Virus record (IMG/VR): IMGVR_UViG_3300025759_000554
Span: 1 to 27,371 of that record
Origin: a virus
Reading direction: 5' to 3' (one strand)
DNA: 27,371 nt
Positions 2,952 through 3,620 of the stretch are shown here, one piece after another (position 1 is the first letter of the stretch; each line of letters opens with the position of its first letter). The notes below the pieces were generated by a model. It saw only the letters and a list, made by a program, of their open reading frames with translations. It did no database searches and had not been told where the DNA came from. The translations under genes were made by a program, and so were the position numbers.

Positions 2952-3024
2952 CTCCCATCGTAGGTACTGCCCCTACCAATCTCCGATTAACAGTCGGGCC
3001 CGTTCGCTTGCTCGGTCGATGGGA
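2952..3024 (-). tRNA. tRNA-Asn-like (GUU) with non-canonical loops
   Basis: The 73-base unit folds into a full cloverleaf: acceptor TCCCATC/GATGGGA (7 perfect pairs), D-stem CCG/CGG, anticodon stem CCGA/TCGG, anticodon loop CTGTTAA (GTT, U33 present), T-stem GTAGG/CCTAC, discriminator G as in Asn tRNAs. The T-loop is GGCAGTA rather than TTCGANN, and the D-loop AGCAAGCGAA has no GG. The elements that normally join the D- and T-loops are therefore missing. It ends 3 bases before tRNA-Val, as in a processed array. It could be a divergent working tRNA, or a mimic. Confidence 0.65.
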
Positions 3025-3028
3025 ATAA

Positions 3029-3098
3029 AGGAAGTTACTGGACTTACACCAGTTCAAAGGGCATTGTCTGCTTGTCTCGATTCTTTGACTTAACTTCC
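3029..3098 (-). ncRNA. tRNA-like RNA without a recognisable anticodon
   Basis: A 70-base unit with acceptor GGAAGTT/AACTTCC (7 perfect pairs), D-stem GTC/GAC around AAAGAATCGA, and T-stem ACTGG/CCAGT around TGTAAGT. These sit at exactly the spacing of the Asn-like unit. The anticodon region (20 bases including variable bases) pairs poorly: AAG/CTT outside, GCA/TGC inside, no U33. There are no canonical T- or D-loop motifs. It ends four bases before the Asn-like unit. I call it a tRNA-like RNA, not a decoding tRNA. Confidence 0.5.
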
Positions 3099-3099
3099 T

Positions 3100-3135
3100 T
3101 TGGCGTCTACCTAGTTAATCGCTAGGGACTACCAA
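3100..3135 (-). other. Long bulged hairpin between tRNA-Gly and tRNA-like unit
   Basis: On the minus strand TTGG/CCAA, GTC/GAC and CCTAG/CTAGG pair in register around the 7-base loop CGATTAA, with small bulges. It fills the whole gap between tRNA-Gly and the tRNA-like unit and has no U-tract, so it is not an intrinsic terminator. It could be a processing signal or part of the neighbouring RNA. Confidence 0.5.
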
Positions 3136-3136
3136 G

Positions 3137-3208
3137 AGCGGGGTATCGGAATCGAACCGACGACATCTAACTTGGAAGGATAGCGTTCTACCGCTGAACT
3201 AACCCCGC
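3137..3208 (-). tRNA. tRNA-Gly (anticodon UCC)
   Basis: Acceptor GCGGGGT/ACCCCGC, discriminator U (usual for bacterial Gly), anticodon loop CTTCCAA with TCC, T-arm GTCGG-TTCGATT-CCGAT. Transcribed from the promoter at 3219-3247. Confidence 0.93.
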
Positions 3209-3248: not shown

Positions 3249-3321
3249 TGGAGAATAGGAGACTCGAACTCCTGACACCCGCCTTGCAAAGGCGATGCTC
3301 TACCAACTGAGCTAATTCCCC
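3249..3321 (-). tRNA. tRNA-Ala (anticodon UGC)
   Basis: Acceptor GGGGAAT/ATTCTCC contains the G3-U70 pair that identifies alanine tRNAs. Discriminator A, D-arm GCTC-AGTTGGTA-GAGC, anticodon arm CGCCT-TTGCAAGGCG with TGC, T-arm CAGGA-GTTCGAGT-TCCT-like. Its first ten bases also encode the last two codons and stop of the HNH gene. Confidence 0.95.
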
Positions 3322-3620
3322 TGGCGAAGTTCTACATGAACTTCTCTGTGACAATTGGCGCAAAGTATACAACACTTGTCCAATTCCATCAATACCTTTT
3401 CCCAATTCCATTTCCGCATATTGTTCCAAGATGCTTCTTTTTTACTTGGGTCAAGATGGTGAAATTCTAAAACATCTGGATACTTATCATACCCACATCT
3501 TTCACATTTTCCACCTTTATATTCTATAGCATCAAGTTTTCTTTGACGCCATCTTTGAATACAATACTGATTAAAAGCAGATTTCTCTTCTTCAGTCATC
3601 AGTTTATAAGGTTTACTCAT
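3312..3620 (-). CDS. HNH homing endonuclease (102 aa)
   Basis: The 102-aa protein has CERCGY (two Cys), FHHLDP and CANCHREVH. This is the Cys-Cys / His-His / Cys-Cys-His layout of small zinc-bound HNH nucleases (established family), which cut double-stranded DNA and often spread themselves. HNH core: about residues 39-97. Its final codons G-N-stop are the first bases of tRNA-Ala, so the gene abuts and overlaps a tRNA. A 9-bp perfect hairpin ends two bases before the ATG, and a late promoter TATAAATA overlaps the hairpin's outer edge. This suggests translation only from late transcripts. It is probably a free-standing mobile gene in the tRNA array. Confidence 0.9.
   Translation of the reverse strand: MSKPYKLMTEEEKSAFNQYCIQRWRQRKLDAIEYKGGKCERCGYDKYPDVLEFHHLDPSKKEASWNNMRKWNWEKVLMELDKCCILCANCHREVHVELRQGN

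Follow-up and report, generated by a model that had tools for sequence, protein, structure and literature searches.

A conserved tRNA-shaped element with a predicted replacement of the anticodon arm in cyanophage tRNA arrays

Described tRNA-like RNAs and the window locus

The canonical tRNA (RF00005) has its acceptor stem, D-arm, T-arm, D/T elbow and place in tRNA arrays in common with the RNA family described in this work. The family differs from it by the absent anticodon arm and the unconserved discriminator, and the copy in our window is additionally without G18G19 and the UUC T-loop. In the engineered "tRNA scaffold" an aptamer replaces the anticodon arm, and the tRNA body matures and stabilises the foreign hairpin; this is a laboratory device, whereas the cyanophage family would be natural and phage-borne. 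That tRNA-like RNAs exist outside translation is already known from the tRNA-Other of Bacillus cereus (PMC3399842) and from rnaC and rnaD of T4. The former is described as a tRNA-like gene with a function of its own, a bacterial chromosomal gene with a Trp anticodon, while the family RNA is viral and has no anticodon. The latter (species 1 and 2 in the NC_000866 annotation) are likewise small extra RNAs of the tRNA cluster of a T4-like phage, but their size of 119-139 nt is unlike that of the family RNA, and homology was rejected, since among the best 300 of 334 matches the covariance model R2 (see below) matched T4 only at tRNA genes. The abiF, wcaG and manA RNAs of the tRNA region of S-CREM1 are also described as structured non-coding RNAs among cyanophage tRNA genes (PMC9964418), with sequences and folds that differ from those of the family; the S-CREM1 family copy lies, unannotated, between wcaG and manA. 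Among the titles and abstract starts listed by searches of the open-licence literature, which do not prove absence, none describes the family RNA or an A18/G55 elbow. New here is a family with a covarying replacement hairpin, unannotated in six isolates. It has long been asked why phages carry tRNA arrays, and a conserved non-decoding member would mean that the arrays are not only a codon supply.

The window, which is the whole stretch of DNA analysed, is a virus fragment of 27,371 bases from IMG/VR. ARAGORN finds eight tRNAs in it, every one on the minus strand, and for this reason the unit under study was read on that strand. The closest matches for the tRNA region are Synechococcus phages, a similarity from which we infer a T4-like cyanophage as the source. 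The start of a wcaG RNA, cut by the window edge, is recognised at positions 1-59 of the minus strand (Rfam, 43.1 bits with a gathering score of 42); this RNA family is known from cyanophages (PMC2864571). An open reading frame of 102 amino acids between the tRNA genes (3312-3620, minus strand) probably encodes a homing endonuclease residing inside the array, since its DNA matches regions annotated as HNH endonuclease in several phages. The minus strand interval from tRNA-Gly(UCC) (3136-3208), the upstream array neighbour of the unit, to the downstream neighbour tRNA-Val(UAC) (2875-2949), both called by ARAGORN, holds three structured units (3100-3135, 3030-3098 and 2952-3024), which are named by neither ARAGORN nor Rfam.

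The middle one of these (3030-3098, minus strand, 69 nt without base 73) is predicted by its fold, a descriptor, the family alignment A1 and pair counts to be a tRNA-like RNA without an anticodon. Read on the minus strand from 3098 to 3030 it is composed of the acceptor strand, AA, the D-arm, AA, GCA-GACAA-TGC, a 7-nt linker, the T-arm and the 3' strand of the acceptor. The acceptor stem GGAAGTT/AACTTCC (3092-3098 with 3030-3036) forms seven of seven pairs, and the fold of a longer stretch adds two A-U pairs outside it; base 3029 (T) would be the discriminator. According to the pair counts the 5' strand of the D-stem, GTC (3087-3089), pairs with GAC at 3074-3076, and the 10-nt D-loop between them (AAAGAATCGA, 3077-3086) aligns without gaps to TATTGGTAAG of the family, with G18G19 changed to A18A19. 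The replacement middle arm at 3061-3071, GCA-GACAA-TGC, has a 3-bp stem and a GAYAA pentaloop and is identical to the commonest family form. It is followed by the 7-nt linker CCTTTGA (3054-3060) and by the T-arm ACTGG-TGTAAGT-CCAGT (3037-3053), in whose 7-nt loop G55 U56 replaces U55 C56. In the family the linker is A-Y-UUGGAnn or a close variant, mostly of 9 nt, and the window copy is without the bulged A and the fourth pair.

Energy minimisation of 3029-3098 returns precisely this cloverleaf (-16.5 kcal/mol, z -1.95), in agreement with the architecture proposed in a first-pass annotation of the sequence, that is seven acceptor pairs, a 3-bp D-stem with a 10-base loop and a 5-bp T-stem with a 7-base loop; 9 of 200 shuffles were as stable, so that the energy by itself is weak evidence. 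A canonical tRNA body (7-bp acceptor, D-stem of 3-4 bp, 5-bp T-stem, 7-nt loop) is present in the window copy, including the seventh acceptor pair, which is absent in 43 of the 62 family rows. A canonical anticodon arm (5-bp stem, 7-nt loop, U33) is not: the middle arm has 3-4 bp and a 5-nt GAYAA loop, a 5-bp/7-nt arm could not be drawn, and ARAGORN calls no tRNA at 3030-3098, which bears out the earlier statement that the middle arm, here GCA-GACAA-TGC, presents no anticodon. The four-base spacer noted earlier within the tRNA array was also recovered, as the bases 3028-3025 which after base 3029 separate the unit from the Asn-like unit downstream.

The family and its covarying middle hairpin

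Loci were gathered by means of a protein of the window, patterns of the Asn-like unit, two family patterns, a covariance model and BLAST, giving 394 sequences, in which the window DNA is counted twice (as window and as L002). The descriptor matched 62 distinct sequences in 176 copies. An earlier version with a fixed GAYAA loop had found 54 distinct sequences in 113 copies, one of them an off-register reading, in the loci gathered up to then, and no match in these loci shuffled once by mononucleotide. In the loci reached through the window protein and the Asn-unit patterns, the middle arm of the window copy is set in a tRNA body whose D- and T-loops are ordinary. The exact 19-mer GGCAGACAATGCACTTGGA occurs in 89 IMG/VR stretches and the looser family pattern in at least 120. 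The hairpin followed by UUGGA sits in family context in all 163 occurrences in the loci searched. By BLAST the family is present in 10 records from six cyanophage isolates, S-PM2, S-SZBM1, S-RIM8, S-CREM1, DSL-LC03 and S-RIM32; the six cyanophage records which were opened are all Kyanoviridae, and in none of the 10 isolate records is there an annotated feature under the family match. A bacterial origin was rejected, the looser pattern having no match in a genome collection that represents 84,980 species of bacteria and archaea by one genome each. Rfam 15 run on six family copies (the window, L061, L090, L127, L329 and L331) matched no family except tRNA, and among the five common-type copies of this set the RF00005 threshold was reached by L090 (33.4 bits). 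Comparison of these sequences shows a conserved, virus-borne element of predicted tRNA shape, in which the anticodon arm is replaced by the motif X-NNN-GAYAA-NNN-A-Y followed by UUGGA or a close variant.

Pairing was assessed in alignment A1, with one row for each of the 62 distinct sequences. Changes on both sides were seen in 15 of 19 pairs, and the covariation score was 0.533, to be compared with 0.159 +/- 0.010 for shuffled alignments (0 of 500 reached it) and at most 0.130 for the slid alignment. Because GAYAA and three middle pairs are prescribed by the descriptor, motif constancy and percentage paired in A1 are partly built in; likewise the D-stem GTC/GAC, invariant at three of three pairs across the 62 rows, is demanded by the looser fetch pattern. 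The fetch patterns fix GAYAA, the bulged A and UUGGA, and the looser one also GTC...GAC. The X-Y pair lies outside the demands of the descriptor and was GC in 39 rows, CG in 20, AU in one and something else in two, rows fetched by the 19-mer being GC by construction. Bias was therefore checked on 28 copies from loci reached by the covariance model, BLAST, the window protein or the Asn pattern. These copies amount to 20 distinct sequences, six of which fit neither family fetch pattern. Their X-Y pair was GC in 11, CG in eight and AU in one, with none unpaired, and the bulged A and GAYAA were present in all 20. The inner middle pair was mismatched in two (A-C in L085, U-U in the L084 type), and the linker varied, with AUGGA, ACGGA and AUAGA among its forms. 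The pair changes show, as far as aligned sequences can, that a bulged 4-bp hairpin with a GAYAA loop takes the place of the anticodon arm. The first-pass annotation had named missing stems in relatives as one observation that would tell against it; the stems are found in the relatives, and they covary. A GAYAA loop with its third base flipped out would form a GNRA-like loop, and the bulged hairpin resembles in kind the protein-binding hairpins of phages. A pairing of the stretch ACUUGGA with the anticodon loop of tRNA-Gly(UCC) was considered and dropped, as the stretch varies (AGUUGGA, ACAUGGA, ACACGGA, AUUUGGA, CCUUUGA) with no matching tRNA change by inspection.

With respect to decoding, ARAGORN names 141 of 185 family copies and skips 44, and the names are mutually incompatible (His-ATG 81, Leu-CAA 35, "ca" 18, Leu-AAG 4, others 3); standard finders may thus mislabel phage tRNAs. 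Base 73 is T in 73, A in 72, C in 28 and G in three of 176 copies, and T, A and C in seven, seven and six of the 20 check sequences. Real tRNAs of the same loci have G in 59/59 (Asn), A in 49/49 (Ala), 75/75 (Pro) and 54/54 (Leu-TAG), and T in 59/61 (Gly). Most real isotypes in these loci are more than 0.9 constant at this base, which the family is not, and some real isotypes are also variable, such as Gln (17/26, 0.65), Phe (9/16, 0.56) and Glu (17/21, 0.81). The free base 73 together with the missing anticodon suggests that the family RNA is not charged by one synthetase and does not decode.

The RNA might instead be a degenerate tRNA that still works despite its odd anticodon arm, the GAYAA loop being read as Leu-CAA/UAA, for instance; this possibility was weighed against these data. 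YAA of the loop is a Leu anticodon and ARAGORN gives Leu-CAA to 35 of 185 copies, but the loop has five bases and no U33, the long variable arm is absent and base 73 is free, unlike the constant A of the Leu(TAG) tRNAs in these loci, and we hold this to be very improbable. A decaying tRNA pseudogene or a chance fold is scarcely credible, even though the energy signal of the window copy itself is weak (z -1.95). Against it speak the 62 distinct sequences of A1, in which 15 of 19 pairs have changed on both sides, and the 20 check sequences, which use three kinds of X-Y pair and never leave these bases unpaired, as well as the absence of descriptor matches in shuffled DNA and the matched elbow swaps described below.

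Nine of the 185 copies have no other ARAGORN tRNA in their locus, and the remaining 176 are all on the strand of the nearest tRNA. The distance to the nearest tRNA is at most 400 nt in 173 of 185 copies and at most 50 nt in 123. When 20 whole records were searched with model R2 at E <= 1e-14, 17 gave exactly one match; the three records without a match (behind L123, L192 and L193) carry the type of sequence found in the window. The common type occurs in 171 loci and the window type in 11 (window included); no locus has both, and two hold two common-type copies each. Since the loci are fragments this mutual exclusion is weaker evidence than the whole-record result. Exclusion is expected if both types are the same gene, and as far as seen the virus-borne RNA would be present once per phage. 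That 17 of 20 records give a single strong match, together with the covariation and the free discriminator, supports the earlier suggestion of a separate, conserved and non-decoding RNA.

Membership of the window copy and the D-loop/T-loop elbow

The window copy differs from the common type in acceptor stem, T-stem, D-loop and T-loop, and is identical in the D-stem and in GCA-GACAA-TGC. It has the GTC/GAC D-stem, the 10-nt loop, the 3-bp middle stem and the GAYAA loop of the common type. Its X-Y bases are unpaired (A and C), C stands for the bulged A and UUUGA for UUGGA, and the linker is two bases shorter, so that the fourth pair, the bulge and the UUGGA-like linker are absent. Window-type copies are one sequence over 69 nt in 12 copies (two of which are the window itself) and count as one lineage. 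Model R2, built from 49 rows with the window copy excluded, gives this copy 28.8 bits, and two ordinary tRNAs of the window score 33.7 and 31.9; common-type members reach 77-98 bits, some of them being model-building rows, and other matches at most 45. The model search places the common type far above tRNAs, but on model score alone the window copy is inseparable from them. RF00005 did not match the window copy at E up to 10, and Rfam 15 assigned it to no family, the weak rows (Plastid-ycf2, mir-1923, mir-276 and SMAD5-AS1_1) being far below their gathering scores. Its middle arm, its elbow pairs and the mutual exclusion of the two types identify the window copy, at sequence level, as a divergent member of the family; it is the elbow evidence that tips the assignment.

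A review of T-loops describes G18-U55 and G19-C56 as conserved key contacts of the elbow (PMC7912444), and tRNA-Pyl as described in PMC6337575 is a known exception without them. In gap-free loops of the family, D-loop bases 18-19 and T-loop bases 55-56 are GG/UC in 60 of 62 rows, GA/UU in S-SZBM1 and AA/GU in the window copy. The same contact was followed in 703 distinct phage cloverleaves, GG and AG being scored as presence in the loop regardless of aligned position. A T-loop with U55C56 goes with a D-loop GG in 663 of 665, the exceptions being one with AG and one with neither. Of 25 distinct cloverleaves with G55C56, 21 have AG and no GG; the other four hold a GG, three of these being one Arg type (loop CAGGAGACAG) which also holds AG. 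Of the four with U55U56, three lack GG in the D-loop (the CAGTGATAG type, which we read as G18A19) and one has it. The association of G55 with loss of GG has a Fisher p of 2.5e-32, a value that is too small given related sequences. The comparison shows the window elbow to be readable as two matched swaps, A18/G55 and A19/U56, in line with the trend in phage tRNAs. The presence of both single swaps together in the window copy fits a preserved L-shape rather than decay. Taken as such, the changes from G18-U55 to A18-G55 and from G19-C56 to A19-U56 would represent natural covariation of a tertiary contact usually called conserved.

The 25 distinct G55C56 phage tRNAs span 11 anticodons, and the 21 with AG and without GG span nine. 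Examples are found at L134 from 7539 (Cys), L061 from 15869 (Val), L155 from 4511 (Lys), L051 from 8220 (Gly) and L093 from 7111 (His). Their base 73 looks typical of the isotype in Asn, Val, Cys, Gly, Lys and Arg, less so in Met. Phages would have altered this contact in genuine tRNAs with nine or more anticodons, and such tRNAs can escape standard finders.

One such tRNA is the downstream neighbour of the unit in the window. The Asn-like unit (2952-3024, minus strand) has the anticodon GUU, the T-loop GGCAGTA, the D-loop AGCAAGCGAA and the discriminator G at 2952; its D-loop contains AG and its T-loop has G at 55. Elbow-swapped tRNA-Asn was found in 105 loci, with G73 in 23 of 23 distinct sequences and an encoded CCA in five of 22 distinct GUU sequences. 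The anticodon, the discriminator and the CCA encoded in some relatives identify the unit, by sequence features, as a real tRNA-Asn with a predicted rewired elbow. Of the pair that had been described as having the same architecture, the Asn-like unit is a real tRNA and 3030-3098 is not. ARAGORN called none of the 105 copies, and Rfam did not call the one in the window; besides them, an ARAGORN tRNA-Asn(GUU) is present in only two of the 105 loci, all of which are fragments. Phage tRNA counts obtained with standard finders can therefore be too low. The elbow-swapped tRNA-Asn is also present, unannotated, in the Microcystis phage Mwe-JY26, and in Synechococcus phage B23 a near relative with the ordinary GG/UC pair is annotated as pseudo-tRNA.

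Possible functions and neighbouring elements

For the window copy, as a member of a T4-like cyanophage RNA family, we propose that the tRNA body serves as a scaffold which presents the GAYAA hairpin to a partner, and would put the chances of this at about even. The RNA would be transcribed together with the tRNA array, cut out of the transcript by the tRNA-processing enzymes of the host and folded into a stable L shape, which could neither decode nor be selectively charged. The tRNA body would act in maturation and stability, and in infected cells the hairpin, with the adjoining D-stem and linker, would be offered to a partner, either a protein or an RNA. Its likeliest use would be as a decoy or antagonist of a host factor. 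The function is placed in the D-stem and GAYAA hairpin because this part is retained even where the body diverges. The window lineage has an almost entirely altered body, the part that tRNA-processing enzymes would see, and has kept the hairpin; this points to the hairpin rather than the body as the working part.

Alternatively the body itself could be the bait, occupying a host enzyme which reads acceptor, T-arm or elbow, such as a tRNA-directed defence nuclease or a modifying enzyme, with the loss of the anticodon only preventing translation. U55 C56 and G18 G19 are retained in 60 of 62 rows, and tRNA-directed defences and phage tRNA counter-measures are described (PMC10264068, PMC11555353, PMC12409363). 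An RNA acting as decoy or antagonist of a host factor would suit this setting under either reading. A bait would however be expected to keep its body, and the window lineage has changed acceptor, T-stem, T-loop and D-loop and has kept the middle hairpin; we consider this explanation unlikely.

The tRNA shape may also be a mere cleavage signal which punctuates the polycistronic array, the RNA being discarded as a processing spacer. Mitochondrial tRNAs punctuate polycistronic transcripts as cleavage signals, and the spacer would account for the strand shared with the tRNA in all 176 copies whose locus has one, for the position within 50 nt in 123 of 185 and for the maintained pairing of acceptor and T-arm. 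Neighbouring tRNAs already provide such signals, though, and a spacer has no need for the same GAYAA hairpin and bulged A in 20 of 20 distinct sequences or for a single copy in 17 of 20 records, which makes it quite improbable.

The scaffold reading can be extended, as a tentative and rather doubtful proposal, to a natural tRNA-scaffolded RNA effector, i.e. a single-copy anti-host RNA with a swapped-in protein-binding hairpin, of which one lineage has a rewired elbow. If so, it would be a decoy or an RNA-antitoxin mimic of a defence system, and the elbow with A18-G55 and A19-U56 should escape host enzymes that recognise the elbow. S-PM2, which has the common type at 164658-164728, and Synechococcus WH7803 already form a laboratory system in which the role of the family can be tested.

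Other small elements were seen among the tRNA genes of these phages. Directly after tRNA-Gly in the window (3100-3135, minus strand) is a hairpin element of 36-38 nt, TTGGTAGTC-[hairpin]-GACGCCAA, which occurs as nine distinct sequences in 25 copies. Its apical stem changes in a paired way, and in the nine examples shown it lies directly 3' of a tRNA. It shares GG-UA-GUC...GAC with the tRNA-like family. An identity with abiF RNA was rejected for this hairpin, there being no Rfam match. The abiF RNAs belong to an abortive-infection system. One is present within the tRNA array of S-CREM1 (L331, 3066-3102), as previously reported for this tRNA region (PMC9964418), and by analogy a cyanophage abiF copy could be an antitoxin mimic.

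A further small element near tRNA genes has a closing stem, for example GGAGAAG/CTTCTCC, around TGATCCTGCGG...CAAGAGCTCTC; it was found as seven distinct sequences in 11 copies (L127, L108, L334, L009, L121, L220 and L362), and the closing stem varies. In Mwe-JY26 the elbow-swapped tRNA-Asn adjoins a further tRNA-like unit (L001, 2918-2997), likewise unannotated, whose acceptor-like stem GGACGTCTA/TAGACGTCC has 9 bp. Matches to the elbow-swapped tRNA-Val(UAC) are present, unannotated, in the cyanophage isolates Synechococcus phage S-N03 (L330, 2501-2574), MA10, MA01, ME01 and MC09.
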